Source: Roseospira goensis (lineage in GTDB: Bacteria; Pseudomonadota; Alphaproteobacteria; Rhodospirillales; Rhodospirillaceae). From it: a stretch of 59,000 nt of DNA. Where the stretch lies: the NCBI RefSeq assembly GCF_014197795.1, contig NZ_JACIGI010000023.1:1-59000 (forward strand). Direction: 5' to 3'. Positions 338 to 59,000 of this stretch are shown here, piece after piece. How positions within the stretch are numbered: the stretch's first letter is position 1; each line of letters opens with the position of its first letter. Below the pieces are notes generated by a model that saw only the letters and a list, made by a program, of their open reading frames with translations, was not told the origin of the DNA and did not search any database. Both the position numbers and the translations under genes were made by a program.

Positions 338-1858
338 TCAGAAGAACCCGAGCTTCTTCGGCGAGTAGCTCACCAGCAGGTTCTTGGTCTGCTGGTAGTG
401 GCCGAGCATCATGGCGTGGGTCTCGCGCCCCACCCCCGACTGCTTGTAGCCGCCGAACGCCGCATGGGCCGGATAGGCGTGGTAGCAGTTGGTCCACACC
501 CGCCCGGCCTGGATGGCGCGGCCCATGCGGTAGCAGGTGTTGGCGTCGCGCGACCACACCCCGGCGCCGAGGCCGTACAGGGTTTCGTTGGCGATCGTGA
601 TCGCCTCGTCGGTGTCCCTGAAGGTTGTGACGGCGACCACGGGGCCGAAGATCTCCTCCTGGAACACCCGCATCTTGTTGTGGCCGCGGAACACCGTCGG
701 CTGGATGTAGTACCCGGTCGACAGCGGTCCGGGCAGCTCGGTGTTGCGACCGCCGCCGGCCAGCACCTCGGCCCCTTCCTGGCGGCCGATATCCAGATAG
801 CTGAGGATCTTCTCCATCTGCTCGGTCGACGCCTGGGCACCGATCATGGTGGCCGGATCCAGGGGGTCGCCGGCGGTGATGGCCGCCACGCGGGCCAGGG
901 CGCGCTCCATGAACCGGTCGTAGATGGCCTCGTGGATCAGGGCGCGCGACGGGCAGGTGCAGACCTCGCCCTGATTCAGCGCGAACATGACGAAGCCCTC
1001 GACGGCCTTGTCGAAGAAGTCGTCATCGGCGGCACAGACATCCTCGAAGAAGATGTTGGGCGACTTGCCGCCCAGTTCCAGCGTCACCGGGATCAGGTTC
1101 TCGCTGGCGTACTGCATGATCAGGCGGCCGGTCGTGGTCTCGCCCGTGAACGCGATCTTGGCGATGCGGTTGGAACTGGCCAGCGGCTTGCCGGCCTCCA
1201 GCCCGAAGCCGCTGACCACGTTGAGCACGCCGGGCGGCAGCAGATCGCCGATGATCTCCATCAGCACCATGATCGAGGCCGGGGTCTGCTCGGCCGGCTT
1301 CAGCACCACGCAGTTGCCGGCCGCCAGCGCCGGCGCCAGCTTCCACGTCGCCATCAGGAGCGGGAAGTTCCACGGGATGATCTGGCCGACGACGCCCAGC
1401 GGCTCGTGGAAGTGATAGGCCACGGTGTCGGCGTCGATCTCGGAAATGCCGCCCTCCTGGGCGCGGATGGCCCCGGCGAAGTAGCGGAAATGGTCGACGG
1501 CCAGTGGCAGGTCGGCGGCCATCGATTCGCGGATCGGCTTGCCGTTGTCCCAGGTCTCGGCGGTCGCGAGGCGCTCCAGGTTCTCCTCGATGCGGTCGGC
1601 GATGCGGTTCAGGATCAGGGCGCGCTCGGCCACGCTGGTGCGGCCCCAGGCGTCCTTAGCGGCGTGGGCGGCGTCCAGCGCCAGGTCGACGTCGGCGGCG
1701 TCGGAGCGGGCCACCTCGCACAGCACCTGGCCGGTGACCGGCGTCGGGTTGTCGAAGTAGCGGCCGTTCACCGGCGGGGTCGGCTTGCCGCCGATGAAGT
1801 TGTCGTAGCGGGTCGCGAACGGGGGCTTCACGTCGCGGAAGAACTCGACCTTGTTCAT
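338..1858 (-). CDS. NAD-dependent aldehyde dehydrogenase, ExaC/AldB-like
   Basis: A full-length ALDH-superfamily enzyme of 506 aa, expected to oxidise an aldehyde to the acid with NAD+ in the cytosol. Visible motifs are the cofactor-domain segment IIPWNFPLL (160-168), the general base Glu261 in ELGGKSPN and the catalytic Cys300 in [11 protein letters not shown]. Length and the YKQSGVGRE segment near the C-terminus fit the ExaC/AcoD/AldB acetaldehyde dehydrogenase branch. The ATG is preceded by a good GGGAGGAG ribosome site, and the longer upstream reading frame is not needed. It is the last gene of the minus-strand cluster that begins with the PaaA-like gene and may consume an aldehyde made by that pathway (inference). 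The true substrate cannot be read from sequence. Confidence 0.93.
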
Positions 1859-2148
1859 GCTGTGCTCCTCCCTGGGGGGTGGTCCGGCTTGTGTGCGCCG
1901 GTATCGGATTTGAGGGCGCAGCCGCGCCGTACCGGGCCGGCCCCATGGCCGACGACCGGCGTGCCGCCGGGGCACCCGGAATCGTCCCCTCACGTCGTTA
2001 CGATGTCGGGATTGGCGAGACCCTTCAACCCCTGCTTTTGCAGGGGTGCGCGGTCCCTGATATCTGGCGGGTCGCGAGCGGGCGCCCCCGGCATCGCCCG
2101 GTCGTGCGGCCGCGACTCGGGCGACTCGGTGCGCGCCGACGCGGGCGC

Positions 2149-2212
2149 TACAGCCGATTGCGACAAACCCGACTCGCCGCGCGATGTCGGTTTGTCGCGA
2201 TAATCGGCTGTA
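2149..2212. repeat. Long imperfect inverted repeat, hairpin 1
   Basis: Outer arms TACAGCCGATT (2149-2159) and AATCGGCTGTA (2202-2212) are perfect complements. Inner arms GCGACAAACC-C-GAC and GTC-GGTTTGTCGC extend the stem. It lies in the 427-bp gap upstream of the aldehyde dehydrogenase and next to a second hairpin with nearly the same outer arms. No other gene is seen in this gap. Confidence 0.8.
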
Positions 2213-2224
2213 AAATCCATAATG

Positions 2225-2288
2225 TAGAGCCGATTCACGTTCGAAATCGGACCGCATCTGCGGGTCCGATTTCGAACAATCGGCTCTA
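2225..2288 (-). terminator. Hairpin 2, overlapping the stop codon of the 159-aa gene
   Basis: Perfect arms TAGAGCCGATT (2225-2235) and AATCGGCTCTA (2278-2288) enclose a second perfect 15-bp stem (2239-2253 with 2263-2277). On the minus strand the TAG stop of the upstream gene forms the first three bases of the structure. A strong stem directly after a gene suggests transcript termination or 3'-end protection, although no U-run follows. The same TAGAGCCGAT string begins at the livF stop. Confidence 0.6.
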
Positions 2289-2765
2289 GTCGCCCTGCTC
2301 TTTCTTCTTCTCGAACTTCAGCAGCGTCCCCGACATGGTCAGGTCGAAGGCCAGGATGCCCTCGGCCGCCTGGTTCTGCCGGTTCACCTTGAGCAGCGGG
2401 TTGTTCTTGTCGGCGAACTCGTCGAACACCTGAAGGTCGATGTCGATCTTGCCGTAGCCGCCGACCACCAGGCCCGAGATCTTGATCTCCGCCTCCAGGC
2501 CATGCATGCGCGGGATGCGGGCCTGCCGCTTGGCGTTGTGCCGGATCGTGAAGTAGTCGGTGGCGACGCTGCCGATGAACAGGGCGCCCGAGCCGGCGTC
2601 GATCGGCACACCGATGCCATAGAGATAGGTGTCCTTACCCATCTTGAACTGAAGATACGTGCTGGAGAGCACCGAGACCCCGATGGGCGTATAGGGGATC
2701 TTGAGCCCGAGAGAGGTGGAGACGAGCCGCAGTTGGATCGGGGATTCCGTCTGGTCATCGGCCAT
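2286..2765 (-). CDS. Hypothetical protein (159 aa) downstream of livF
   Basis: No family was recognised. The protein starts [12 protein letters not shown] and has no signal peptide or hydrophobic membrane segment. It alternates short beta-prone stretches with glycines ([29 protein letters not shown]) and ends in a lysine/glutamate-rich tail. The ATG is preceded by GGGAGGG. A longer upstream reading frame (from about 2897) would overlap the intergenic region and is less likely. It sits 140 bp after livF and before the aldehyde dehydrogenase on the same strand, so it is probably transcribed with the transporter. Its role in that cluster is unknown. Confidence 0.75.
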
Positions 2766-2905
2766 GCCTCGCCCTCCCTCGCCCGTCGCCCGGTTGATCC
2801 GCATCCGTATCGTCAGGCTAGCAGAAGGCCACAACCGGGCGAACGGAGAACTGGGGCGGGCGCTGTTCTCGCGAGGGGCGCCGATGCCGTGTGGCACGAT
2901 CGGCT

Positions 2906-3607
2906 CTACAGGCCGAGATACGCCTCCTTGACGCGCGCGTTCTCCAGCAGCGCGGCGCCCGTGTCGGACAGCACCACCCCGCCGGTCTCCAGCACGTAGC
3001 CGCGATCGGCGATGCCGAGCGCGGCGTAGGCGTTCTGCTCCACCAGGAACAGGGTGGTGCCCTGCTCCTTGAGCAGTTCGACGGTGTTGAAGATCTCGCC
3101 CACCAGCAGCGGCGCCAGCCCCATCGACGGTTCGTCCAGCAGCAGCAGGCGCGGATGCGCCATCAGCGCCCGGCAGATCGCCAGCATCTGCTGCTGCCCG
3201 CCGGACAGGGTGCCGGCGGGCTGCTTGCGCTTCTCCTTCAGCACCGGAAAGCGGGTGTACATGCGCTCCAGGTCGTCGGCCACACGCTTGCCGCGGCGGC
3301 GGAAGGCGCCCAGCTTCAGGTTATCCTCGACCGACAGCGGGCCGAACACCTGGCGCCCTTCCGGCACCTGGCAGATGCCGAGCGCGACGCGGCTCTGCGG
3401 CGCCGCCCGGGTGATATCGCGGCCCTCGAACAGGATGCGGCCGCCGGTGACCGGCTGCACCCCGGAGATGCAGCGCAGCAGGGTGGTCTTGCCGGCCCCG
3501 TTGGCGCCCACCAGCGCGACCAGCTCGCCCTCGGCGATGGTCAGGTCGACGCCCTCAAGCGCCTGGATGCGGCCGTAGTGGCTGGTCAGCCCCTGGATTT
3601 CGAGCAT
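2906..3607 (-). CDS. livF: Branched-chain amino acid-type ABC transporter ATP-binding protein LivF
   Basis: One of two ATPases that drive import through the LivHM channel. The 233-aa protein has Walker A GANGAGKTT (34-42), the ABC signature LSGGQQQ (134-140) and Walker B LLLLDEP (154-160), the normal set and length for LivF. It begins 33 bp after the livG stop, behind a GGGAGGGG ribosome site that is part of an 18-bp tandem duplication. Its TAG stop opens a TAGAGCCGAT motif followed by an imperfect hairpin. Hydrophobic amino acids are the classical LivF substrates, but paralogues also import aromatic acids, amides and other small carboxylates. Confidence 0.97.
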   Translation of the reverse strand: MLEIQGLTSHYGRIQALEGVDLTIAEGELVALVGANGAGKTTLLRCISGVQPVTGGRILFEGRDITRAAPQSRVALGICQVPEGRQVFGPLSVEDNLKLGAFRRRGKRVADDLERMYTRFPVLKEKRKQPAGTLSGGQQQMLAICRALMAHPRLLLLDEPSMGLAPLLVGEIFNTVELLKEQGTTLFLVEQNAYAALGIADRGYVLETGGVVLSDTGAALLENARVKEAYLGL

Positions 3608-3614
3608 CAGGCCA

Positions 3615-3640
3615 CCCCTCCCTTACACATTGCCCCTCCC

Positions 3641-3650
<10 letters not shown>
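3615..3650. repeat. Exact 18-bp tandem duplication across the livG stop and livF ribosome site
   Basis: CCCCTCCCTTACACATTG occurs at 3615-3632 and again at 3633-3650. On the coding strand each copy carries a TAA stop in the livG frame and a GGGAGGGG Shine-Dalgarno sequence, giving two in-frame stops and two ribosome sites between livG and livF. Confidence 0.95.
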
Positions 3651-4395
<745 letters not shown>

Positions 4396-4399
<4 letters not shown>

Positions 4400-5430
4400 G
4401 ACCGCGCCCTCCGGCGCCGCGCCAGCCCGGACAGGGTGGGCACCAGCCCCTTCGGCATGAAGATCATGACCACCATCATGATAAGACCCAGGATCATGTG
4501 TTCGTAGGACGCGAAATCGGCCAGAAGCTGTGGCAGCAGGGTCAGGACCGCGGCGCCGACCAGGGCGCCGAAGGTGGAGGCCATGCCGCCGAACACCACC
4601 ATCGTGACGAACAGGATGGAGTGGAAGAAGCTGGCCTTGTCGGGGGTGACGAACTCGGAGAAGTGCGCCGCCAGGCTGCCCGCGACCGACGCCATCACCG
4701 CCGACAGCACGAACACCATGACCTTGTAGCGGGTGGTGTCGACGCCGGCGACCTCGGCCGCCACGCTGGCCCCGTGCAGGGCGCGCAGGGCGCGGCCCGC
4801 CGGGCTGTCGATCAGGTTCAGGGACAGCCACACCGCCAGCACCAGGACCGCGGCCACGATCCAGTACCACACCGGGCCGCCGTACAGCTCGAAGCCCCAG
4901 ACCTCGATGGCGGGGACATACATGCCGTCGGGACCGCCGGTCAGCCAGGCTTCGCGGCTGATGACGATGTTGATGATGAGACCGACGCCCAGGGTCGCCA
5001 TCGCCAGGTAGTGCCCGGACAGGCGCAGGATGGGGCGCGCGATCACATAGGCCAGCAGCCCGACGCCGAGCGCCCCCAGCGGCAGCGCCAGCGCGCCGTG
5101 GAGGCCGTAGCGCGTGGTCAGGATGGCCGAGGCATAGGCGCCGAGGGCGAAGAAGCCGGCATGCCCGAGGCTGATCTGGCCAGCGTAGCCGATCAGCAGG
5201 TTGAGGCCGACCACCACGATGGCGTTGATGCCGATGTTGACGACCACGTCGTACTGGTAGTTGTTGGTCAGCAGCAGCGGCAGAACCGCGATCACCACCA
5301 GCAGGGTGAGCATGCCGCCGACGCGCTCGGACAGCAGCACCTGGGCCGGCGTCGCCCGGGTGCCCAGGCGGCGGCTGTAGGTCTGCGGCTTGCGGTGCTT
5401 GCTGTATCCGGAGGGTCTGATGTCTGCCAT
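4396..5430 (-). CDS. livM: Branched-chain amino acid-type ABC transporter permease LivM
   Basis: An inner-membrane permease of 344 aa with about nine hydrophobic segments, for example LLIGYAGQISLGHAGFFALGAYASA, which carries the G-x-I-S-L-G-H-A-x-F motif of LivM permeases. It pairs with LivH to form the channel. It begins 12 bp after livH and overlaps the livG start. The N-terminal ~35 residues are basic and polar (MADIRPSGYSKHRKP) before the first membrane helix. Confidence 0.96.
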
Positions 5431-5442
5431 GGTCGCCCCGCC

Positions 5443-6327
5443 TCAGACGCGCTCGGTGCCACGGCGGCCGAACAGGCCGCTCGGCATGAAGAACAGCACG
5501 CCCAGGATGACCACGAAGGCCATGGCGTCCTTGTAGTCCGAGGAGATGTAGCCGGCGCCCAGGCTCTCGATCAGGCCGAGCAGCAGGCCGCCGACGATGG
5601 CGCCCACGCCGTTGCCCAGACCGCCCAGGATGGCGGCGGCAAAGCCCTTCAGGCCCAGCATGATGCCGACCTCGAAGTGGGTCGCGGTGATGGGCGCGAT
5701 CAGGATGCCCGCGACCGCCCCCAGCAGGGCCGACAGGCCGAAGCTGAGCAGCAGCACGAAGCTGACGTTGATGCCCACCAGGCGCGCGGCGAGCCGGTTG
5801 TGGCTGGTCGCCAGGATGGCCTTGCCCAGCAGCGTGTAATTGAAGAACCCGTGCAGCAGCACCACGATCCCCGCGGTCACCCCCAGGATCCACAGGCTCT
5901 GCGGCATGATGGTCGCGCCCAGCAGGCTAAGCGGCTCGTCGCCGGAGAACGACGGCAGCGCGTGCAGGTCCTTGCCCAGCGTCACGCTGGTCAGGCCGCG
6001 CAGGAAGATGCCGGCGCCGATGGTGATGATGATGAGGGTGACCACGTCGGCGTTGCGGGCCGGCTCGATGGCCAGCTTCTCCAGCGCCAGCCCGACCACC
6101 ATGGTCAGCGCCACGGCGCCGGCGATGGCCAGCGGCAGGTCGATCCCCTGGCTCAGGAGCGCCCAGGTGACCATGCCGCCGAGCATGACGAACTCGCCCT
6201 GGGCGAAGTTGATGACGTGGCTGGCGTTGTAGATCAGCGCGAAGCCCAGCGCCACGAGCGCGTAGATGGCGCCGCTGGTGATGCCGGAGAAGAGGAACTG
6301 GAGAAACTCGACGAGCGGGGCGGGCAT
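5443..6327 (-). CDS. livH: Branched-chain amino acid-type ABC transporter permease LivH
   Basis: The second permease (294 aa). It shows the LivH signature SGAIYALVALGFALIYNASH followed by NFAQGEFVMLGG near the N-terminus. The C-terminal half contains the glycine-rich GLKGFAAAILGGLGNGVGA segment seen in these permeases. Multiple hydrophobic helices fill the rest. It is the first of four tightly packed genes (livHMGF) downstream of the binding protein. Confidence 0.96.
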   Translation of the reverse strand: MPAPLVEFLQFLFSGITSGAIYALVALGFALIYNASHVINFAQGEFVMLGGMVTWALLSQGIDLPLAIAGAVALTMVVGLALEKLAIEPARNADVVTLIIITIGAGIFLRGLTSVTLGKDLHALPSFSGDEPLSLLGATIMPQSLWILGVTAGIVVLLHGFFNYTLLGKAILATSHNRLAARLVGINVSFVLLLSFGLSALLGAVAGILIAPITATHFEVGIMLGLKGFAAAILGGLGNGVGAIVGGLLLGLIESLGAGYISSDYKDAMAFVVILGVLFFMPSGLFGRRGTERV

Positions 6328-6424
6328 GGAGGGATCCGTTCGCAGGCAGGTCCGGACGGGCCGCGCGCGCCGGCCCCGGACGGGCGGGAGGGGCGCGCGC
6401 GGCGGGTCGCGATCGGGGCGATCG

Positions 6425-7600
6425 TCAGTTCACGAGCACCCAGTCGCCGTCCCGGATTTCCAGCATACGGAAGGCGGTCAGGTCCAGGCCCAGATGATCG
6501 TCCGCGCTCATGGTGACCTCGCCGGCGGTGCCGATGAAGCCGCGGGTGGCCTCCAGGGCGTCGCGCACGGCGGCCGGATCGGCGCTGCCGGCGGCCTCGA
6601 CCGCCGCCTTGTAGAGCATCAGGCCGTCATAGGCGTGGCCGCCGAAGGTGGAGACGGAGCCTTCGCCGTGCACGGCCTCGTAGGTGCTCTTGTAGCCCAC
6701 CACGATGGGCCGCTGCGGGTCGCCGTCGGGCAGCTTCTCAGCCACCAGCAGGGCGGCGGCGGGCAGGCGCACGCCCTCGGCGGCGTCCCCGGCCAGCTCG
6801 ATGAACTTCTTCGAGGCGACACCGTGCGACTGGTACAGCGGCACCGCCATCCCGATCTGGGCGAAGTTCTTGGTCACGATCGCGGGGCCCTGGCCGAAGC
6901 CCGGGTTGACCACGGCCTCGACGCCCTCGGTGTTCTTGATCTTGGTGAGCTGGGCGACCATGTCGGTGTCGGAGGGCGCATAGGTCTCGTCGGCGACGAT
7001 CTCGATGCCGTAGTCGGGTGCGACCTCCAGGCACTGGCCGCGCATCGACTTGCCGAACCCGCCGGTGCCGGAGATCAGCGCCACCTTGGAGATGCCGCGG
7101 CCCTGCATGTCCTCGAAGATCTTGCCGCAGGCCATGCGGTCGGTGTGCGGGGTCTTGAACACCCAGGGCTTGACCGGGTCGATGATCGACACGCCGCCGG
7201 CGAACGAGATGAACGGCACCTCGGCGCGCTCGACCAGCGGGATCACCGCCATGGTGGTGCCGGTGGTGGAGCCGCCCAGGATGACGTCCACCTCGTCCGA
7301 CTCCAGCAGGCGCTTGGCGAAGGTGCGGGCCTTGTTGGCGTCGGCGCCGGTGTCGTAGTGCACCAGCTCCAGCTCGCGGCCCAGCAGACCGCCGGCCTGG
7401 TTGATGCGCTCGATGTACATCTCCAGCGTCTTCAGCTCCGGGTCTCCCAGGAACGACGCCGGTCCGGTGACCGCCAGGAACGACCCGATGCGGATCGGGT
7501 CCTCCTGCGCCTGGGCCGGGGACGGAGCGGGCGCCGTCAGGCCGAGCGCGACCAGCGCCACCCCGGCCAGCATCAGCCCCTTCGTAAACCGCGTCATCAT
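6425..7600 (-). CDS. livJ: Periplasmic substrate-binding protein, LivJ/LivK family
   Basis: Captures the ligand in the periplasm for LivHMGF. The 391-aa protein has a Sec signal peptide (MMTRFTKGLMLAGVALVALG, cleavage expected after AQA near residue 32). The mature start is DPIRIGSFLAVTGPASFLG, the type-I periplasmic fold start of leucine-type binding proteins. An ATGATG pair gives two equivalent starts, with GGGAGG upstream. The leader contains two CAAGATCACMAA repeats (7629-7653). A palindromic array separates it from the upstream 140-aa gene, so it may have its own promoter or a processed transcript. The ligand is unknown; its location beside a PaaA-like enzyme suggests an aromatic or short acyl acid rather than leucine (inference). 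Confidence 0.93.
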   Translation of the reverse strand: MMTRFTKGLMLAGVALVALGLTAPAPSPAQAQEDPIRIGSFLAVTGPASFLGDPELKTLEMYIERINQAGGLLGRELELVHYDTGADANKARTFAKRLLESDEVDVILGGSTTGTTMAVIPLVERAEVPFISFAGGVSIIDPVKPWVFKTPHTDRMACGKIFEDMQGRGISKVALISGTGGFGKSMRGQCLEVAPDYGIEIVADETYAPSDTDMVAQLTKIKNTEGVEAVVNPGFGQGPAIVTKNFAQIGMAVPLYQSHGVASKKFIELAGDAAEGVRLPAAALLVAEKLPDGDPQRPIVVGYKSTYEAVHGEGSVSTFGGHAYDGLMLYKAAVEAAGSADPAAVRDALEATRGFIGTAGEVTMSADDHLGLDLTAFRMLEIRDGDWVLVN

Positions 7601-7628
7601 CGACTGACCTCCCGTGTCGTTGTCTTGC

Positions 7629-7653
7629 TTTGTGATCTTGGTTGGTGATCTTG
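7629..7653 (-). promoter_or_regulatory. CA-rich repeats in the livJ leader
   Basis: On the mRNA strand CAAGATCACCAA (7642-7653) is followed one base later by CAAGATCACAAA (7629-7640), 29-53 nt before the start codon and in an unusually CA-rich stretch for this GC-rich genome. The dppA-like leader at 35255-35281 has two copies of the related CAAGACCACCAA. Such C/A-rich leader sites in transporter mRNAs are typical targets of GcvB/AbcR-type small RNAs (inference). Confidence 0.45.
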
Positions 7654-7726
7654 ATTTGGTTTGGGTGCCTGGCGGCGGGCACGCCGCCGGCGCCGGCCAC
7701 CGGTGTCGGAACCGTACCCGAAGGCA

Positions 7727-7740
7727 GTTTCAATTGAAAC
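7727..7740. promoter_or_regulatory. Perfect 14-bp palindrome upstream of livJ
   Basis: GTTTCAATTGAAAC is fully self-complementary and AT-rich against the local background. It lies 127 bp upstream of livJ, between its leader and array B. It could be an operator for a dimeric regulator; no convincing -35/-10 pair was found beside it. Confidence 0.4.
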
Positions 7741-7838
7741 CATTTCGGCACGGGGCCGGAGCGGGGCCGCCGGCTCAAGACCATAGCCGCTCGGCGGGTA
7801 TGCCGGAAGGCCCGGACGGAGCCGCGTGACAGGGTTTC

Positions 7839-8070
7839 GGTCGCACGCCGGAGCGTGGGACCGAGACAGCATAGGGAGTCTCGCGCCCACGCTCCCGCGT
7901 GGGCGCCTCGGCGTCGTGCTGTCCCACGCCGGAGCGTGGCACCGAGGAAGCATAGGGGGTCTCGCGCCCACGCTCCTGCGTGGGCGCAGGGCGGCAGGCG
8001 CCGGTCCCACGCCGGAGCGTGGCACCGAGAGAAGACAGGGAGTCTCGCGCCCACGCGCCCGCAGGGGCGC
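7839..8070. repeat. Palindromic repeat array B (six palindromes, two types alternating)
   Basis: GGTCCC-type members start near 7839, 7920 and 8003. GCGCCC-type members start at 7883, 7964 and 8047. The two types alternate, so the combined unit is about 81-83 bp. Several GGTCCC members are imperfect (for example GGTCGC or GGCACC arms). The array begins six bases after the stop of the 140-aa gene and separates it from livJ on the same strand. Confidence 0.92.
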
Positions 8071-8076
8071 GCCCCC

Positions 8077-8499
8077 TCAACCCTGGCGCAACACCTGCTC
8101 CAGGCGTTCGCGGGCGGCGCCGAAGGCTTCCACGCTGTCCTCGTAGGCATCGCGGGCGATCGCGTAGCTCTCCACCGCGTCGGTCTGCACGCCGTCCGAG
8201 AAGATGCGCACGTGCCAGCGTTCGCAGGTTTCCAGATTGCGGTCGGCGATCAGCCGGCGCGCCATGTACTCGCGCGCCGCCGCCTGCGCGGCCGCGCCCA
8301 GAGCGTCGTAGGCCGGCACGGCGCCACCGCCGGCGGACGCGAAGTCGCCGCGCAGCAGGTCCCACATCTCGGCCCAGTCCTCGCGCAGTTCGCCGTCCTC
8401 CAGGTGACGGTAGCCGAACTTCGCGAGCACGCTGCGGCCGCTGGCGAACAGGGTGTTGGGCAGTTCCGGCACCGCGTTGGTGCCGCTTTCGGGTGTCAT
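8077..8499 (-). CDS. Hypothetical protein (140 aa), putative partner of the PaaA-like protein
   Basis: No family was recognised. The sequence is soluble and mostly helical, with many Ala, Glu and Arg residues and segments such as FGYRHLEDGELREDWAEMW and ESYAIARDAYEDSVEAFGAA. There is one cysteine and no signal peptide or membrane segment. It is too long and unlike PaaB (about 95 aa) and lacks ExxH diiron motifs, so it is not a PaaC-like paralogue. It follows the diiron gene by 92 bp on the same strand and ends against array B. A structural or accessory subunit of the oxygenase is plausible but unproven. Confidence 0.8.
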   Translation of the reverse strand: MTPESGTNAVPELPNTLFASGRSVLAKFGYRHLEDGELREDWAEMWDLLRGDFASAGGGAVPAYDALGAAAQAAAREYMARRLIADRNLETCERWHVRIFSDGVQTDAVESYAIARDAYEDSVEAFGAARERLEQVLRQG

Positions 8500-8591
8500 G
8501 GACCGGGTCTCCGATACTGTTCCGGTCGGCCGCGACCGGGATCCGTCCGGGTCACGGCCGATCCCCCTCTGGACTCGCGTCAGGAGACGCC

Positions 8592-9404
8592 TCAGGAAAC
8601 GTGGGCGACGGTCTCGCCGGCCTCGTAGCCCATGCGCATGTCGTAGTCGGGCTCGACGTTGCGCGGCATCTCCAGGCCGCAGTCCTTGAGGCGGTCCTCC
8701 AGCAGCTCCAGGTATTCGGCCTGAAGCTCTTCCGGGGTGCGGGTCTTGATGCCGTAGTCCAGGTACTTCTGGAACATGGCGGAGGCTTTCGCGCCCTTGC
8801 TCGGGCGGCCGTAGAAGCCCAGGCCGATGCGCATGAACTTCTCGACCTTGGACTGGCAGATCTCGCGCGCCTTCTCGCCACCGAACTCGATGTTGCGCTT
8901 GGTCGCCCAGACGCCGAACGCGAGGTGGCCGTGCTCCTCCTTGTGAATGCGCACGTTGACCCGCGCCCAGGGCAGGTAGGAGCACTCGCGGTACTGGCCC
9001 AGGAAGGCGACGGCGGCCGGGGTAACCACGGTGGAGAACAGGCCGACGTCGTACCAGTCCTCGAACCAGGTGGACCAGTTCTCCTTGCGGAAGCCGTTGA
9101 TGACGTTGACCTTGGCCGGATCGGGATTGTCCGGGTTCTGGACCAGTTCCTGCACCCGCGCGTCCACGTCCACCCCCAGGTCCTGCATCAGGTTCCAGAC
9201 GTAGTAGCCGTGGCCCATCTCCTCCATGACCTTCTTGGACAGGCGGTAGGCCTCCTCGGGGCGGGGCGCGAACCGCATGTTCTCCATCACCCGCTGACCG
9301 CCGGCGTACTCGGAATCGGCCTGGAACGACATCAGGTTCAGCAGCAGGGTCTTGTAGTCCTCCGGCAGGGTGTCGCCCTTGTCGTAGGTCTTCCACGTCG
9401 GCAT
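8592..9404 (-). CDS. PaaA-like (phenylacetyl-CoA epoxidase family) diiron protein
   Basis: A 270-aa member of the PaaA/PaaC ferritin-like family. Likely iron ligands are Glu32 (in QADSEYAGG), Glu62 and His65 (EEMGHGYYVWNLMQDLG) and Glu157 and His160 (KEEHGHLAFGV), that is, two ExxH motifs plus one Glu. In the family such sites activate O2 to epoxidise or hydroxylate a CoA thioester or related substrate. It is about 40 aa shorter than E. coli PaaA, and no paaB, C, D or E gene is nearby, so it is probably not the classical phenylacetyl-CoA epoxidase. The ATG follows GGGAGGA. It is the first gene of a minus-strand cluster with a Liv transporter and aldehyde dehydrogenase, divergent from a PaaX-type regulator. 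Substrate unknown. Confidence 0.88.
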   Translation of the reverse strand: MPTWKTYDKGDTLPEDYKTLLLNLMSFQADSEYAGGQRVMENMRFAPRPEEAYRLSKKVMEEMGHGYYVWNLMQDLGVDVDARVQELVQNPDNPDPAKVNVINGFRKENWSTWFEDWYDVGLFSTVVTPAAVAFLGQYRECSYLPWARVNVRIHKEEHGHLAFGVWATKRNIEFGGEKAREICQSKVEKFMRIGLGFYGRPSKGAKASAMFQKYLDYGIKTRTPEELQAEYLELLEDRLKDCGLEMPRNVEPDYDMRMGYEAGETVAHVS

Positions 9405-9527
9405 CGCGCCGTCCTCCCTCGAGTCGTGTGGATCGGGTCGTGTGCGCCGGGGTTGCCGCTCCGGCGGGCGCGGTCTCGCGGCCGGGCGACCCCGCCCAAA
9501 GTGACACACAATTGCTTTTCAGAACCG

Positions 9528-9556
9528 ATTTAGTGTAACGCTTCGAGGGTTGTCAA
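9528..9556 (-). promoter_or_regulatory. Promoter with operator-like box for the PaaA-like gene cluster
   Basis: On the minus strand a consensus -35 TTGACA (9551-9556) is separated by 17 bp from a -10-like CTAAAT (9528-9533), about 120 bp before the PaaA-like start codon. The spacer contains the box CGAAGCGTTACAC (9533-9545), which recurs as CGAAAGAGTAACAC at 9707-9720. A bound repressor would block RNA polymerase, as expected for PaaX-family control. Confidence 0.6.
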
Positions 9557-9706
9557 TGCTTTTCGGATCCGCAACCAGGGGACATAATGGTGCCGATCGC
9601 AGGGGCAGAAACGAGGCTGTTGAACGCGTTATCAAGGGATTGCCGGCGCGCCACGGCGCCCAGGGGAATGCCCCTTTATATTATACGGTTTATCGGCATG
9701 ACAGTG

Positions 9707-9720
9707 CGAAAGAGTAACAC
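9707..9720 (+). promoter_or_regulatory. Second operator-like box upstream of the paaX-like gene
   Basis: CGAAAGAGTAACAC is the inverted partner of the box GTGTAACGCTTCG at 9533-9545. Both copies fit GTGTWACKCTTTCG apart from one missing base in the first copy. It lies 20-40 bp from the AT-rich segment TTTATATTATACGG (9675-9688), which could hold the paaX promoter, so autoregulation is plausible. The rest of the 489-bp divergent gap shows no gene. Confidence 0.45.
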
Positions 9721-9893
9721 GTCCGCCAGCACCCGGCCGCCGCCCGGGGCCCGCCCGCGGCCCGGCCGCGCGAGCGCGACGCGGTCTCGGCCCTTTCCGT
9801 CCGGAGCCGAACCGCCTACAAGACCGGTTTGCCCCACCGCCGGCCCCCGTCCGTGCGCGTCTGCCCGCGTGCATCCGAGCAGGATTCCTCCCT

Positions 9894-10871
9894 ATGCCCG
9901 CCGCCATGCCCACCACGCCCCCGATGCCCCGGTCCCGCCGCCTGGACGACCAGATCACGCGCGTCACCGAGGCCATTCCGCTGCGCGCCAAGTCGCTGAT
10001 CGTCACCATCTACGGCGACAGCATCCTGCCCCACGGCGGCAGCACATGGCTGGGCAGCCTGATCCGGCTGGTCGAGCCGCTGGGCCTGTCCGAGCGCATG
10101 GTGCGCACCGCGGTGTTCCGCCTGACCCGGGACGACTGGCTGGTGGCCGAGCAGATCGGCCGGCGCAGCTACTACGCCCTCACCGCCGAGGGCCGGCGCC
10201 GTTTCGAGGCCGCGCACCGGCGCATCTATGCCCTCGACCAGCCGCCCTGGGACGGCGACTGGCTGCTGGTGCTGACCAACGCCGTGCCGCTGGAGCCGGA
10301 CCAGCGCGAGGCGCTGCGCCGCGACCTGCTGTGGCAGGGCTACGGCACCCTGGCGCCGAGCGTGCTGGCCCATCCGGGCGGCGAGGACGACGGCCTGCGC
10401 CAGACCCTGGACAGCCACGGCCTGAGCGACGCGGTGGTGGTGATGCGGGCGCGCGGCCATCCCATGACCGACCCGCTCGCCAGCACCGCCATGGTGCGCG
10501 GCTGCTGGGACCTGGACACGCTGGCGGCGGACTATGGCGCCTTCCTGGAGCGCTTCCGCCCGGTGTGGCGGGCGCTGGAGGCGGCCGGCGACGGCTGCGC
10601 GCCGGTGCAGGCGTTCCTGGTGCGCACCCTGCTGATCCACGACTACCGCCGGGTGCTGCTGCGCGATCCGCTGCTGCCCCTGGAGGTGCTGCCGCCGGAC
10701 TGGCCGGGAGCGGCCGCCCGCCTGCTGTGCCGCAACATCTACCGCGCCACCTACCAGGCCGCCGAGCGCCACATCATGGACACCCTGGAGACGGCGGACG
10801 GCCCGCTGCCGCGCGCCGCCCGGGTGTTCTACGACCGCTTCGGCGGCCTGTTGGCGGACACCCCGGGCTGA
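9894..10871 (+). CDS. PaaX-family transcriptional repressor
   Basis: A 325-aa regulator that resembles PaaX along its length. An N-terminal winged-helix region (about 35-105) includes SLIVTIYGDSILPHGGSTWL and the recognition-like SERMVRTAVFRLTRDDWL. The middle and C-terminal PaaX domains end with CRNIYRATYQAAERH. Known PaaX proteins repress phenylacetate genes and release DNA on binding phenylacetyl-CoA. Here the likely target is the divergent PaaA-like cluster, given the paired boxes between them. The effector may differ because the target cluster is not a canonical paa operon. It is followed by fprA-like and bluB genes with a short gap. Confidence 0.9.
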   Translation: MPAAMPTTPPMPRSRRLDDQITRVTEAIPLRAKSLIVTIYGDSILPHGGSTWLGSLIRLVEPLGLSERMVRTAVFRLTRDDWLVAEQIGRRSYYALTAEGRRRFEAAHRRIYALDQPPWDGDWLLVLTNAVPLEPDQREALRRDLLWQGYGTLAPSVLAHPGGEDDGLRQTLDSHGLSDAVVVMRARGHPMTDPLASTAMVRGCWDLDTLAADYGAFLERFRPVWRALEAAGDGCAPVQAFLVRTLLIHDYRRVLLRDPLLPLEVLPPDWPGAAARLLCRNIYRATYQAAERHIMDTLETADGPLPRAARVFYDRFGGLLADTPG

Positions 10872-10923
10872 CCAAGGGCCGGGCGGGTCTCGCCCCAGAC
10901 AAACGACCGCAGGGAGGACCCGC

Positions 10924-12297
10924 ATGACCACCCCCAGCCCCGCCACCGTCTGTATCGTGGGCGCCGGTCCCGCCGGCCTGTACGCCGCCGACGCCCTCAT
11001 CCGCAAGCGCCCCGACGCCCGCATCGACATGCTCGACCGCCTGCCCACGCCGTTCGGGCTGGTGCGGGCCGGCGTGGCCCCCGACCACCAGGGCACCAAG
11101 GCCATCGTGCGCCAGTTCGCCCGCACCCTGGGCCGGCCCGGGGTGAGGTTCCTGGGCCATGTGGCCGTCGGCCGGGACGTGACGCTGGCCGAGCTGCGCG
11201 ACGCCTACGACGCGGTGATCCTGGCCACCGGCGCGCCCGAGGACCGCCGTCTCGGCATCCCCGGCGAGGACCTGGCGGGCGTCTACGGCTCCGGCGCCTT
11301 CGTCGGCTGGTACAACGGTCATCCCGACCACGCCGGCCTGGCACCGCGCCTGACGGGGCCGGGGGTTGCGGTGGTCGGCAACGGCAACGTGGCCCTGGAC
11401 ATCGCCCGGGTGCTGGCCAAGACACCGGCGGAGATGACCGGCGCCGACCTGACCGCCGACGCGGCCCGGACGATCGCCGCCGCCCCCCTGACCGACATCC
11501 ACATCCTGGGCCGGCGCGGCCCGCTGGAGGCCAGCTTCACGCCCGCCGAACTGGCCGAGATGGGCACCCTGACGCGGGCCGTGCCGGTGGTCGACCCGGC
11601 CGCGCTGCCCGACGCCGCGGGGGCGTGGGACGATCCCAAGGAGCAGGCGCTCAAGGACAAGACCCTGGAGATCCTGCGCGGGCTTGCCGCCCGTCCGGCG
11701 GCGTCGGCGGCGCCGGTGCGGGTGCACTTTCATTTCCGCGTCGCCCCGCTGGCGGTGTTGGGGGCGGACGGCGCCGTCACCGGCCTGCGCCTGGCCCGCA
11801 CCCGGGTCGAGGACGGCCGCGCCGTCGTCACCGAGGAGACCACCGACCTGCCCGTCGCCACCGTGGTCAGCGCCATCGGCTACCGCTGCGCCGCCCTGGC
11901 GGGCGCGCCGCTGGACGACCGCGGCGTGGTCGCCAACACCGACGGAACGGTGGCGCCGGGGCTGTTCGTGGTGGGCTGGTCCAAGCGCGGCCCCAGCGGT
12001 GTCATCCCCACCAACCGGGCCGATTCGATGGCCGTGGCCGGGCGCGTGCTGGCCTGGCTGGACGCCCAGGCGGCCGGCAAGCCGGGACCGGACGCCCTGG
12101 ACCGCCTGCTGGTGGCGCGCGGGGTGCGCGCGGTGTCGCGGGAGGACTGGGACCGCCTCGATGCCGCCGAGGTGGCGCGCGGGGCCGCCGCCGGCCGGCC
12201 GCGCGAGAAGTTCACCTCTGTGGCGGCCATGCTGGCGGCGCTGGACGCGGCACCCGGCGCGCCCGACACGGCCGCCACCCAGACCGCCGACGCCTGA
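10924..12297 (+). CDS. FprA-like ferredoxin/adrenodoxin--NADP+ reductase
   Basis: A flavoprotein of 457 aa in the adrenodoxin reductase/FprA family, which moves electrons from NADPH to a ferredoxin. The FAD-binding motif GAGPAGLYAAD is at 13-23, followed by the family-typical FGLVRAGVAPDHQGTK. A second nucleotide-binding segment VVGNGNVALDIARVL lies at about 150-164, and the C-terminal WSKRGPSGVIPTNRADS matches the family hallmark. It lies 52 bp after the paaX-like gene and precedes bluB. It could feed electrons to the divergently encoded diiron protein or to flavin for BluB (inference). No ferredoxin gene is seen in the window. Confidence 0.93.
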   Translation: MTTPSPATVCIVGAGPAGLYAADALIRKRPDARIDMLDRLPTPFGLVRAGVAPDHQGTKAIVRQFARTLGRPGVRFLGHVAVGRDVTLAELRDAYDAVILATGAPEDRRLGIPGEDLAGVYGSGAFVGWYNGHPDHAGLAPRLTGPGVAVVGNGNVALDIARVLAKTPAEMTGADLTADAARTIAAAPLTDIHILGRRGPLEASFTPAELAEMGTLTRAVPVVDPAALPDAAGAWDDPKEQALKDKTLEILRGLAARPAASAAPVRVHFHFRVAPLAVLGADGAVTGLRLARTRVEDGRAVVTEETTDLPVATVVSAIGYRCAALAGAPLDDRGVVANTDGTVAPGLFVVGWSKRGPSGVIPTNRADSMAVAGRVLAWLDAQAAGKPGPDALDRLLVARGVRAVSREDWDRLDAAEVARGAAAGRPREKFTSVAAMLAALDAAPGAPDTAATQTADA

Positions 12298-12336
12298 CCC
12301 CGACCCGAGTCCGACCCGAGTCCGAAAGGTCCGCCG

Positions 12337-13017
12337 ATGCCCGACCCAGACACCGCCACCGCCACCGCGTTCGATCCGGCCGATCCGCCGGTGTGGGACG
12401 ACGCCTTCCGCCGTGACTTCGCCGCCCTGCTGACCTGGCGCCGTGACGTGCGCCGCTTCCGCACCGACCCGATCCCGGAGGACACGGTCACCCGGCTGCT
12501 CGGGCTCGCCCACCTGGCGCCGTCGGTCGGATTCTCGCAGCCCTGGCGGTTCGTGCGGGTGCGCGACCCGGGCCGCCGGCGGGCGGTGCTGGAGGACCAC
12601 CTGGCGGCCAAGGCGGAGGCCGGCGCCGTCTACGATGCCGAGACGGCGCCGCGCTACCAGGCCCTCAAGCTGGCCGGCCTGGACGACGCCCCGGTGCACC
12701 TGGCGGTGTGCTGCGACACCGCGACGACCGACGGCCGCGGCCTGGGCCAACAGACCATGCCGGAGACTGCGCCGTATTCGGTGGTCTGCGCCATCCACAC
12801 CCTGTGGCTGGCGGCGCGGCTGGAGGGCATCGGCCTGGGCTGGATCTCCATCGTGCATCCGGCGCGCCTGCACGCCGTGCTCGACCTGCCCGAAGCCTGG
12901 ACCCTGGTGGCCTACCTGTGCCTGGGCTACCCCGAGGCGGCGCGGCCCACGCCGGAGCTGATCGCGGCCGGCTGGCAGGCGCGTCTGCCGCTGGAGGCGG
13001 TGCTGGCGGAGCGGTAG
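12337..13017 (+). CDS. bluB: 5,6-dimethylbenzimidazole synthase BluB
   Basis: Converts reduced FMN plus O2 into 5,6-dimethylbenzimidazole, the lower ligand of vitamin B12. The 226-aa nitroreductase-fold protein shows RRDVRRF (35-41), SVGFSQPWRF (63-72) and GLGQQTMPE with the following YSVVCAIHTLWLAAR, all typical of BluB rather than ordinary nitroreductases. It starts 39 bp after the fprA-like gene and ends 21 bp before a convergent gene. No cobalamin riboswitch was seen upstream; no other cobalamin genes are in the window. Confidence 0.9.
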   Translation: MPDPDTATATAFDPADPPVWDDAFRRDFAALLTWRRDVRRFRTDPIPEDTVTRLLGLAHLAPSVGFSQPWRFVRVRDPGRRRAVLEDHLAAKAEAGAVYDAETAPRYQALKLAGLDDAPVHLAVCCDTATTDGRGLGQQTMPETAPYSVVCAIHTLWLAARLEGIGLGWISIVHPARLHAVLDLPEAWTLVAYLCLGYPEAARPTPELIAAGWQARLPLEAVLAER

Positions 13018-22496: not shown

Positions 22497-23777
22497 GTGA
22501 CGAAACGGACGATACGGCCGGCGGGACAACGCCGGCGGAGCCTCGGCGGAGTCGGCAGGCTCGGCGCGGTGGCCCTCCTGGGCCTGATGCTGGCCGCCTG
22601 CGCCCAGGTTTCGGCGCCCCCGCCGCGTCCGTCAAGCCCCCCCGAGCCGCCGCCACCGCGCGCCCAGCCCAGCCCGCCGGCCGAGCGCGCGCCGCTCGGC
22701 CAGGCCCCCGACACGCCGCTGTCGGGCCAGTTCGGCGGCAGCGGCGTGGGGGCCGACGGCATGGTGCGGGTCGGGCTGCTGGTGCCGCTGTCGGGGCCGG
22801 CCGCCGGCGCCGGCGAGGCGCTGCTGAACGCCGCCCAGATGGCCGCCTTCGACATGGGCAACGACCGCCTCGTCCTGCAACCCTACGACACCGGCGGCAC
22901 CCCCGCCGGCGCCGCCCAGGCGGCCGAACGCGCCCTGCGCCAGGGGGCGCGTATCCTGCTGGGGCCGCTGTACGGCAACAGCGCCCGCGCCGTCGGGCCG
23001 GTGGCGGCCGGCGCCGGGGTCAACGTGGTCGCCTTCACCACCGATCCCGGCGTGGCCGGCGGCAACGTCTTCGTCATGGGCTTTCTGGTGCGCGAGCAGG
23101 TCGACCGCATGGTGCAGTTCGCCCTCGGCGAGGGCCGTACCCGCTTCGGCGCGCTGACCCCCAGCGAGACCTACGGTCAGGTGGCGACCCAGGCGCTGCG
23201 CCGTCAGGTGGCGGCACGCGGTGGCCAGATGACGGCGGTGCAGACCTATGCGCCCGACAACCCGGACCTGCGCGGTCCGGCCCGCGCCCTGGCGGGGGCC
23301 GACGCCATCCTGATCCCCGACACCGGCGACGGCCTGCGCGCGGCGGTCAACGGCCTGGCCTATGTCGACATCGACTCGCGCACCGCGCGCTACCTCGGCA
23401 CCATGCTGTGGAACGACCCCGGGCTGTGGCGCGAGAGCGCGCTCGCTGGTGGCGTGTTCCCGGCGCCGCCGCGCGGCAGCGTGCAGGCGTTCGAGCGCAA
23501 GTACGCCGACGCCTTCGGCACCGCGCCGCCGGACATCGCCGTGCTGGGCTACGACGCCGCCGCGCTGGCGGCGGTGCTGGCGCGCATGGGCGGCGGGCCG
23601 CGCTTCGATCGCGCCACCCTGACCAGCGCCTCGGGCTTCGGCGGCGCCGCCGGCATCTTCCGTTTCCGCAGCGACGGCACCGTGGAACGGGGCCTGGCGG
23701 TGATGGAGATCCAGTCGGGCGGCACCGTCCGCGAGGTCGCGCCGGCGCCGCTGTCGTTCGGGAGCGCGGGGTTCTGA
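22497..23777 (+). CDS. Penicillin-binding protein activator, LpoA/LppC-like lipoprotein
   Basis: A 426-aa lipoprotein. A basic N-terminus and hydrophobic helix (LGAVALLGLMLAACAQ) end in the lipobox LAAC, followed by a proline-rich spacer (about 40-75). The rest is a periplasmic-binding-protein-like domain starting VRVGLLVPLSGPAAGAGEAL, as in the C-terminal half of E. coli LpoA. In E. coli, LpoA activates PBP1A from the outer membrane; the alphaproteobacterial relatives lack the TPR half and their partner is not established. The start codon is GTG, preceded by AGGGGAG. Array C begins 16 bp after its stop. Confidence 0.88.
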   Translation: MTKRTIRPAGQRRRSLGGVGRLGAVALLGLMLAACAQVSAPPPRPSSPPEPPPPRAQPSPPAERAPLGQAPDTPLSGQFGGSGVGADGMVRVGLLVPLSGPAAGAGEALLNAAQMAAFDMGNDRLVLQPYDTGGTPAGAAQAAERALRQGARILLGPLYGNSARAVGPVAAGAGVNVVAFTTDPGVAGGNVFVMGFLVREQVDRMVQFALGEGRTRFGALTPSETYGQVATQALRRQVAARGGQMTAVQTYAPDNPDLRGPARALAGADAILIPDTGDGLRAAVNGLAYVDIDSRTARYLGTMLWNDPGLWRESALAGGVFPAPPRGSVQAFERKYADAFGTAPPDIAVLGYDAAALAAVLARMGGGPRFDRATLTSASGFGGAAGIFRFRSDGTVERGLAVMEIQSGGTVREVAPAPLSFGSAGF

Positions 23778-23793: not shown

Positions 23794-24254
23794 GCGCCCA
23801 CGCGGGAGCGTGGGCGCGAGACCCCTTCACTTCTCGGTCCCACGCTCCTGCGTGGGACCGCGCGCATACCAGGCGCCCACGCGGGAGCGTGGGCGCGAGA
23901 CCCCTTCCCTTCTCGGTCCCGCGCTCCTGCGTGGGACCGCGCGCATACCAGGCGCCCACGCGGGAGCGTGGGCGCAAGACCCCTTCACTTCTCGGTCCCA
24001 CGCTCCTGCGTGGGACCGCGCGCATACCAGGCGCCCACGCGGGAGCGTGGGCGCGAGACCCCTTCACTTCTCGGTCCCGCGCTCCTGCGTGGGACCACGC
24101 GCATACCAGGCGCCCACGCGGGAGCGTGGGCGCGAGACCCCTTCACTTCTCGGTCCCGCGCTCCTGCGTGGGACCGCACACATCCCGGGCGCCCACGCGG
24201 GAGCCTGGGCGCGAGACCCCTTCACTTCTCGGTCCCACGCTCCTGCGTGGGACC
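23794..24254. repeat. Palindromic repeat array C (six 79-bp units, twelve palindromes)
   Basis: Units start at 23794, 23873, 23952, 24031, 24110 and 24189, an exact 79-bp period. Each unit has a GCGCCC-type palindrome with loop GGGA, a linker GAGACCCCTTCACTTCTC, a GGTCCC-type palindrome with loop TCCT, then CGCGCATACCAG. Units are almost identical, with isolated changes such as GGTCCCGC. The array fills the gap between the convergent lpoA-like gene (16 bp away) and tsaD (7 bp away). Confidence 0.97.
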
Positions 24255-33123: not shown

Positions 33124-33613
33124 GGTCCCACGCGGGAGCGTGGGACCAAGAAAGTGGGGGGTCCCACGCGGGAGCGTGGGACCAAGAAAGTGGGGGGTCC
33201 CACGCGGGAGCGTGGGACGGAGAAAACAGCGGTCCCACGCGGGAGCGTGGGACGGAGAAAACACGGGTCCCACACGGGAGCGTGGGATGGAGAAAACGGG
33301 GGTCCCACGCGGGAGCGTGGGACGGAGAAAACGGGGGTCCCACGCGGGAGCGTGGGACGGAGAAAGGGTTCGGCCGGTCCCACGCGGGAGCGTGGGACAG
33401 AGAAAACAGCGGTCCCACGCGGGAGCGTGGGATGGAGAAAACACGGGTCCCAGGCGGGAGCGTGGGACGGAGAAAACACGGGTCCCACGCGGGAGCGTGG
33501 GACGGAGAAAACGGGGGTCCCACGCGGGAGCGTGGGACGGAGAAAACAGGGGTCCCACGCGGGAGCGTGGGACCGAGCGCCCCCCTCTCGCGCCCATGCT
33601 CCTGCGTGGGCGC
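33124..33613. repeat. Palindromic repeat array D (thirteen GGTCCC palindromes plus one GCGCCC)
   Basis: GGTCCC-type palindromes with loop GGGA start at 33124, 33160, 33196, 33231, 33266, 33301, 33336, 33376, 33411, 33446, 33481, 33516 and 33551 (mostly a 35-bp period). Linkers are variants of GGAGAAAACNNG. A single GCGCCC-type member ends the array at 33590-33613. The phrase GGTTCGGCC precedes the first and eighth members, indicating an internal block duplication. The array fills the gap between convergent hslU (11 bp) and the binding-protein gene (13 bp). Confidence 0.97.
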
Positions 33614-39325: not shown

Positions 39326-39628
39326 GCGCCCACGCGGGAGCGTGGGCGCGAGATATGGTTTTCTCGGTCCCACGCTCCGGCGTGGGACCGCGTGACGTCC
39401 AGGCGCCCACGCGGGAGCGTGGGCGCGAGATCCCTTCTTCCTTTTCTCGGTCCCACGCTGCGGCGCGGGGCCGCGTGAGCCCCAGGCGCCCGCGCGGGAG
39501 CGTGGGCGCGAGATCCCTTCTTTCTCGGTCCCACGCTCCGGCGTGGCACCGCGTGACGTCCAGACGCCCACGCGGGAGCGTGGGCGCGAGGTCCCTTCTT
39601 TCTCGGTCCCACGCTCCGGCGTGGGACC
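39326..39628. repeat. Palindromic repeat array E (four units, eight palindromes)
   Basis: Four units of about 75-82 bp, each with a GCGCCC palindrome (loop GGGA) and a GGTCCC palindrome with loop CCGG, linked by GAGATCCCTTCTTTCTC and CGCGTGACGTCCAG variants. The second unit is the most diverged (GCGGGGCC arm). The organisation copies array C but with different linkers. The array fills the gap between convergent sdhB (15 bp) and the acyl-CoA synthetase (7 bp). Confidence 0.95.
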
Positions 39629-47747: not shown

Positions 47748-47771
47748 GGCCCCACGCCGAAGCATGGGGCC
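47748..47771 (-). terminator. Terminator with TTCG tetraloop after ubiK
   Basis: On the minus strand the stem GGCCCCATGC / GCGTGGGGCC (one A-C mismatch) closes a TTCG loop, a very stable tetraloop in RNA. It is followed by GTTTGCTTTT and two further similar T-rich segments of about 18 bp (to about 47700). It lies 41 bp after the ubiK stop and upstream of msrP, a convincing intrinsic terminator. Confidence 0.75.
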
Positions 47772-58765: not shown

Positions 58766-59000
58766 GGTCCCACGCTGGAGCGTGGGACCGAGAAAGCGAA
58801 CGGTCTCGCGCCCACGCTCCCGCGTGGGCGCCGGGGGGCGGTCCCACGCAGGAGCGTGGGACCGAGAAAGCGAACGGTCTCGCGCCCACGCTCCCGCGTG
58901 GGCGCCGGGGGGTGGTCCCACGCAGGAGCGTGGGACCGAGAAAGCGAACGGTCTCGCGCCCACGCTCCCGCGTGGGCGCCGGGGGGCGGTCCCACGCAGG
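58766..59000. repeat. Palindromic repeat array F, cut by the window end
   Basis: Alternating GGTCCC (loop TGGA or AGGA) and GCGCCC (loop TCCC) palindromes with a 74-bp period: members at 58766, 58808, 58840, 58882, 58914, 58956 and a last partial one at about 58988. Linkers are GAGAAAGCGAACGGTCTC and CGGGGGGC. The array continues beyond the window. Confidence 0.93.

Follow-up and report, generated by a model that had tools for sequence, protein, structure and literature searches.

Two aerobic aryl-coenzyme A (CoA) oxygenases are the closest described counterparts of the system reported here: the 1,2-phenylacetyl-CoA epoxidase PaaABC(D)E of Escherichia coli and Pseudomonas sp. Y2 and the benzoyl-CoA 2,3-epoxidase BoxAB. 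The locus in question lies in a window that is a whole 59-kb contig of the Roseospira goensis genome (4.18 Mb, 98.6% complete). It encodes a PaaA-like ferritin-fold protein of 270 amino acids (paaAl; 8592 to 9404, minus strand; PF05138 profile), which is the proposed catalytic subunit, and a helical protein of 140 amino acids (o140; 8077 to 8499, minus strand), identified by synteny as the constant neighbor of paaAl in Proteobacteria. We propose, with a probability of roughly 60%, that this locus supplies the catalytic half of an alternative oxygenase for the ring of phenylacetyl-CoA, one that replaces PaaABCE and consists of paaAl and o140, usually together with c9, a second PF05138 protein encoded on another contig.

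The system has in common with PaaABC(D)E a PaaA-type fold, five of six metal ligands and the bridge lysine, control by PaaX with an N27-spaced operator, and the downstream enzymes PaaG, PaaN, and PaaJ as well as PaaK. It differs in that paaAl is about 22 to 25% identical to PaaA, lacks its C-terminal tail, and has threonine for Asp126; in that o140 stands instead of PaaB; and in that an FprA-type reductase and a flavodoxin, rather than PaaE, are encoded beside the genes. BoxAB has a related fold and a catalytic subunit without a PaaC-like partner, but BoxB chains are 470 to 477 amino acids long. A BoxA-type two-cluster ferredoxin is encoded downstream of paaAl in 10 of the 11 loci of the Melainabacteria group, and only there (in five of them, a c9-like gene precedes it). 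SSO1313 of Sulfolobus (PDB 4mud), a stand-alone PaaA/PaaC-like protein of unknown function, is likewise a short PF05138-type protein. The reductase of the window is close to 1lqt and 1cjc, which relates it to the chain from NADPH via FprA/adrenodoxin reductase to ferredoxin or flavodoxin, although here the chain would serve a PaaA-type oxygenase. Overall, the paaAl system probably acts in the manner of an aryl-CoA epoxidase, yet it does not qualify as a member of PaaABCE.

Phylogeny and metal ligands of paaAl

The match of paaAl to PF05138 (PaaA_PaaC superfamily) scores 89.3 bits against a gathering cut-off of 28.5, with PaaA as the best fold match, and the protein falls below the PaaA equivalog threshold (TIGR02156, 82 bits versus 280). 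Thirteen of 298 genomes sampled from the order, including the source genome, carry paaAl at 79 to 100% identity; the next matches are at ≤30%, the range in which ordinary PaaA and other PF05138 proteins set in. Among 398 genomes sampled from the phylum, the sole close match is the source genome, with 54 more genomes matching at ≤30%. When one genome per species was scanned, 41 further loci emerged at 64 to 94% identity, many of which belong to the order sample as well; the core is thus conserved far beyond chance. Counts out of 42 refer to the source genome plus these 41 carriers, and counts out of 30 refer to related proteobacterial loci. The carriers belong to Roseospira, Novispirillum, Caenispirillum, Terasakiella, Azospirillum, Oceanospirillaceae, Rhodocyclaceae, and the Melainabacteria/Obscuribacterales group (n = 11, including L105, which is labeled Proteobacteria yet clusters there).

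A 93-row tree places all 42 paaAl rows in a single clade (100/100) and c9 with its melainabacterial relatives in a clade of their own (100/99), each separate from PaaA and PaaC; the bootstrap was short of full convergence, and the tree has weakly supported deeper forks and several long branches. A third PF05138 group, of about 240 amino acids, is distinct from PaaA, PaaC, c9, and paaAl (L126, L127, L161 to L164, L166, L169 to L172, L177, L180, and L181).

The six ligands of PaaA are Glu42, Glu72, His75, Asp126, Glu155, and His158, according to the portion of PMC4498308 available to us. The reading made earlier from this stretch alone (the sequence-only reading) described a shortened PaaA-like subunit with intact ExxH ligands. 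This holds for both ExxH motifs and the first glutamate, as E32, E62, H65, E157, and H160 of paaAl are invariant, along with the bridge lysine K58, across Proteobacteria and Melainabacteria. It does not extend to the sixth ligand, since Asp126 aligns with Thr128, which is threonine in 42/42 carriers. The ligand set of c9 is more broken, with Lys at the position of Glu72, Ile, Leu, or Met at Lys68, and Gly or Ala at Asp126, and the five melainabacterial rows of the c9 clade have lost two further ligands. Furthermore, paaAl is more conserved than any of its neighbors.

Genes that accompany paaAl

The gene for o140 is beside paaAl in all 30 proteobacterial loci, and the protein has no Pfam or NCBIfam match at an E value of 0.01. 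A profile search found o140 in 6 of 385 genomes of the class, adjoining paaAl in all six and never without it; five of the six were already in the carrier set, and the scan mainly shows that o140 was not found without paaAl.

The sequence-only reading placed a PaaX-type repressor and an FprA-type reductase divergent from these genes, and both assignments are confirmed. The repressor (9894 to 10871, plus strand) scores 304.8 bits with TIGR02277 (cut-off, 264.55), matches chain 8a39, named as an aryl-CoA-responsive repressor of phenylacetic acid degradation, at an E value of 1e-71, and is found in 27/30 loci. The FprA/adrenodoxin-reductase-type NADPH reductase (10924 to 12297, plus strand), the proposed electron donor, occurs in 23/30 loci, and its best solved matches are adrenodoxin reductase 1cjc (E value, 1e-91) and FprA 1lqt (2e-82). 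A PaaE/BenC-like [2Fe-2S] reductase takes the place of FprA in three Azospirillum loci (L083, L091, and L092, at about 6.2 to 8.7 kb), where it adjoins an AurF/rubrerythrin-like protein that has ExxH-type motifs of its own and is perhaps a separate oxygenase or a substitute for c9. Eight Oceanospirillaceae-type loci encode a DUF2889 protein beside FprA (L088:6494-7090, L081, L082, L085, L094, L095, L097, and L110; identified by Pfam in one).

On the same strand as paaAl, a Liv-type uptake system spans 2906 to 7600. Its substrate-binding protein (6425 to 7600; PF13458), present near paaAl in 20/30 loci, is probably for an aromatic acid: its nearest solved chains are 3sg0, 4dqd, 3tx6, 7ylt, and 4jb0 (E values, 1e-40 to 5e-35), several of which we take to be Rhodopseudomonas palustris proteins binding aromatic acids. 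The LivH-type permease (5443 to 6327; PF02653) is followed by genes that, from their position, are presumably those for a LivM-type permease (4396 to 5430), a LivG-type ATPase (3641 to 4399), and a LivF-type ATPase (2906 to 3607). The dedicated uptake system of the sequence-only reading thus recurs in part, with LivH and LivF in 16/30 loci and no full Liv set in the remainder. Six of the loci (L081, L082, L088, L094, L097, and L110, all Oceanospirillaceae) have a TRAP-type transporter in place of the Liv permeases, identified through DctP by Pfam in one locus and by eye for the two other subunits, which suggests that uptake is kept while the type of transporter changes. A metallo-beta-lactamase-fold hydrolase is encoded in 13 loci (L076, L077, L078, L082, L083, L086, L088, L090 to L092, L096, L097, and L110), in 12 of them after the transporter. 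It is SoxH-like, falls short of the cut-off for each of the 25 NCBIfam families shown, and is possibly a pathway thioesterase or lactonase.

Three further genes of the window, encoding an ExaC-type acetaldehyde dehydrogenase (338 to 1858, minus strand; score above the NCBIfam cut-off), a 160-amino-acid open reading frame (2286 to 2768, minus strand), and BluB (12337 to 13017, plus strand), were found in none of the 30 related loci by tblastn at ≥40% identity over at most 10 kb on each side, and less at some loci. They are therefore probably mere neighbors rather than members of the system, and the aldehyde disposal that had been assigned to the dehydrogenase loses its basis.

Phenylacetyl-CoA pathway genes on a second contig

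The sequence-only reading took the locus for a complete module, whereas the CoA ligase, PaaG, thiolase, PaaN, and flavodoxin are encoded on another contig of the source genome (C6; locus L064). There, PaaN (TIGR02288, 889 bits) and the flavodoxin are on one strand, and c9, PaaG (TIGR02280, 409 bits), a PcaF/PaaJ thiolase, and PaaK (TIGR02155, 719 bits) are divergent from them. The only PF05138 matches in this genome are paaAl and c9, with no PaaC proper, and PaaB has no match, which upholds the earlier view of a PaaA-type oxygenase without PaaB or PaaC that is tied instead to a 140-amino-acid protein. Pfam and NCBIfam scans found neither PaaE nor PaaD at the window locus; no genome-wide search was made for either. 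PaaB is absent from 35/42 carriers, the source genome counted and Roseospira navarrensis, Terasakiella pusilla, and Terasakiella brassicae among them, although many of the 41 related genomes are metagenome-assembled genomes (MAGs) and absences there are soft.

PaaK-type ligases match in all 42 carriers and PaaN in 32, each with 29 above cut-off, and 17/30 proteobacterial loci contain CoA-pathway genes. A second PF05138 gene is within 1.5 kb of PaaN in 21/42 genomes and is c9 in all those genomes, a part of the total, whose gene was included in the tree. All six class genomes that have o140 carry a PF05138 gene within 1 kb of PaaG.

Predicted PaaX operators

The E. coli PaaX operator is TGATTC(N27)GAATCA, with phenylacetyl-CoA as the inducer, as given in the portion of PMC9493321 available to us. 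In each of the 28 paaX-paaAl intergenic regions examined (one from the window and 27 from other loci), the best inverted repeat falls at a register of 31 to 32 bases, with a TGATAC-N27/28-GTATCA-like consensus. In the window, the predicted operator CGTTAC-N27-GTGTCA (9502 to 9540), recognized as the conserved inverted repeat, overlies the paaAl promoter directly after a -35-like TTGACA box (9551 to 9556, minus strand), and TTGAC is found here in 26/28 aligned regions. A second operator-like repeat, TGTTAC-N27-GTATAA (9681 to 9719; 10/12 matches), is on the paaX side and was identified from spacer statistics. Upstream of c9, the source genome has CGATAC-N27-GTATCC, with the same geometry in the regions of nine relatives (N28 in two Oceanospirillaceae).

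Among 45 spacers scanned, 27 ranks first in both sets, and this result holds with one region per group. The mean best match is 10.64/12 for the 28 paaX-paaAl regions and 10.80/12 for 10 c9 regions, compared with maxima of 8.29 and 8.30 in 100 shuffles, which do not correct for kinship among the regions. When the second cluster of the source genome is scanned with a matrix built from the paaX-paaAl sites, the region upstream of c9 ranks first. With a PaaX equivalog beside paaAl and N27 operator-like repeats at both clusters, the paaAl locus and the c9 cluster belong to a predicted PaaX regulon in which PaaX is predicted to bind at both.

Proposed function and mechanism

Gene content, conservation, operator geometry, the absence of PaaB and of a further PF05138 protein, and the ligand substitutions were computed, and from these we infer the substrate, the reaction, the electron path, the subunit contacts, and the roles of o140 and c9. 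The argument for phenylacetyl-CoA is one of exclusion, as the pathway genes are present, PaaB and PaaC are absent, and only paaAl has a near-complete ligand set; the predicted shared control by PaaX and operators at both clusters points the same way. The substrate, which the sequence-only reading had left unidentified, is thus probably phenylacetyl-CoA, as indicated by the regulator, the operator, PaaK, PaaG, PaaN, and PaaJ.

The Liv system would import phenylacetate or a close relative, PaaK would form phenylacetyl-CoA, and the thioester would release PaaX from the operators at both clusters. Electrons may move from NADPH via the FprA-type reductase and then the flavodoxin, whose gene is next to that of c9, to the metal site of paaAl; paaAl would oxygenate the ring and hand the product to PaaG, PaaN, and PaaJ. 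In Proteobacteria, o140 may be a needed small partner with a coupling or bridging role, the job of PaaB in PaaABCE, and c9, where present, may act as a PaaC-like second ferritin-fold subunit.

Besides the kinship of the operator regions and the soft absences in MAGs, several observations weigh against this proposal. The replacement of Asp126 by threonine in every carrier suggests that the metal site may not be a standard di-iron center. The co-occurrence of o140 with paaAl, complete in Proteobacteria, fails in all 11 Melainabacteria-group loci, from which PaaX is also missing, and FprA is absent at this place in 7/30 proteobacterial loci. Ten of the 42 carriers (three Azospirillum, one Rhodocyclaceae, and six of the Melainabacteria group) have paaAl as their single PF05138 gene, so c9 cannot be obligatory. 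PaaB is present in 7/42 (two Novispirillum, Caenispirillum, Oceanospirillum, Amphritea, Pontibacterium, and one Oceanospirillaceae MAG), which would mean redundancy if both enzymes do one job. The conserved operator is a weak copy in the window (9/12 matches), and the matrix scan is mixed elsewhere: the c9 upstream region is first in L065 (10.9; shuffle, 7.7) and L068 (9.0; shuffle, 12.0), second in L066, third in L069, and not first in L079, L080, L082, and L110. Finally, 36 of 67 PaaG-positive class genomes are without PaaB, and 19 of those 36 are without a PF05138 match, so PaaG alone is a poor marker, and o140 occurs in only 6 of the 385.

Alternative explanations

The main rival is a homogentisate-type side route, in which paaAl would hydroxylate phenylacetate (free or as the thioester) to hydroxyphenylacetate, a flavoprotein hydroxylase and homogentisate-type cleavage would consume the product, and the CoA cluster would run alongside as a second route controlled by the same repressor. 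A PRK08132-type FAD hydroxylase, a distant HmgA-like dioxygenase, a fumarylacetoacetase-family hydrolase, or a maleylacetoacetate-isomerase-like protein (the last named by eye) is encoded in 8/30 proteobacterial loci (L076, L082, L083, L086, L091, L092, L094, and L110), and such a route would account for the carriers that keep PaaB. We nevertheless consider it unlikely, as the other 22 loci have none of these genes, versus the 17 with CoA-pathway genes; the HmgA match is far below cut-off (95.6 versus 510.75 bits); and paaAl is paired, in the loci of the Melainabacteria group, with a ferredoxin of the BoxA type, which is the donor of an aryl-CoA epoxidase.

The position of c9 close to PaaN and PaaG might suggest that the oxygenase is c9, with paaAl as a ferritin-like subunit in an accessory or protective role. 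The replaced ligand positions of c9, its further losses in Melainabacteria, the carriers without any second PF05138 protein, and the stronger conservation of paaAl make this quite improbable. Alternatively, having lost the helix-E carboxylate, paaAl may have a job other than oxygenation, such as epoxide deoxygenation, metal handling, or sensing. The invariant Thr128 would fit such a role, as would a gene divergent from paaAl in L079 and L080 (near 8.7 to 9.9 kb) that resembles, by eye from the sequence, a G3E-type metallochaperone GTPase. The invariance of the other five ligands and K58 over Proteobacteria and Melainabacteria and the redox partners that accompany paaAl render this reading improbable as well. 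An import-oxidation-aldehyde disposal module for some other small substrate, suggested by the dehydrogenase and Liv genes being neighbors on one strand in the window, is very improbable, being largely refuted by synteny over the stretch examined and by PaaX and its operators, which indicate phenylacetyl-CoA.

Significance of a proposed paaAl-o140 oxygenase

We found no description of a paaAl-o140 system in the open-access literature searched, and a PaaA-type oxygenase without PaaB or PaaC is apparently undescribed. A 2026 pathway survey retains PaaA and PaaC, on the basis of their shared PaaA_PaaC architecture, among the proposed genomic markers for degradation of phenylacetate, and the portion of it available to us does not describe the paaAl system (PMC13186573). 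Under such scoring, carriers could be missed for want of PaaABCDE or counted, as PF05138 also matches paaAl and c9. If the phenylacetyl-CoA oxygenase proposed here is real, it would show how few parts an aryl-CoA epoxidase needs, provide a naturally occurring PaaA-type enzyme whose metal site is altered, and give a role to a 140-amino-acid family. More tentatively, paaAl, o140, and c9 may represent a third independent form of aerobic aryl-CoA ring oxidation besides PaaABCE and BoxAB, distributed over Alpha-, Beta-, and Gammaproteobacteria and Melainabacteria, with a metal site lacking the helix-E carboxylate (five-ligand di-iron, mixed-metal, or Thr-liganded) and fed by flavodoxin or BoxA-type ferredoxin.

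Other features of the window

A second Peripla_BP_6 binding protein is encoded at 22497 to 23774. Arrays of a palindrome resembling repetitive extragenic palindromic elements, CACGCTCCNGCGTGGG, are found at 116 to 310, 7842 to 8021, 23797 to 24251, 33127 to 33610, 39329 to 39625, and 58769 to 58976, with a single copy beyond the arrays at 47751, for a total of 52 matches versus 1.26 expected from shuffles. The arrays hold both ends of the contig and may account for the break points of the assembly.

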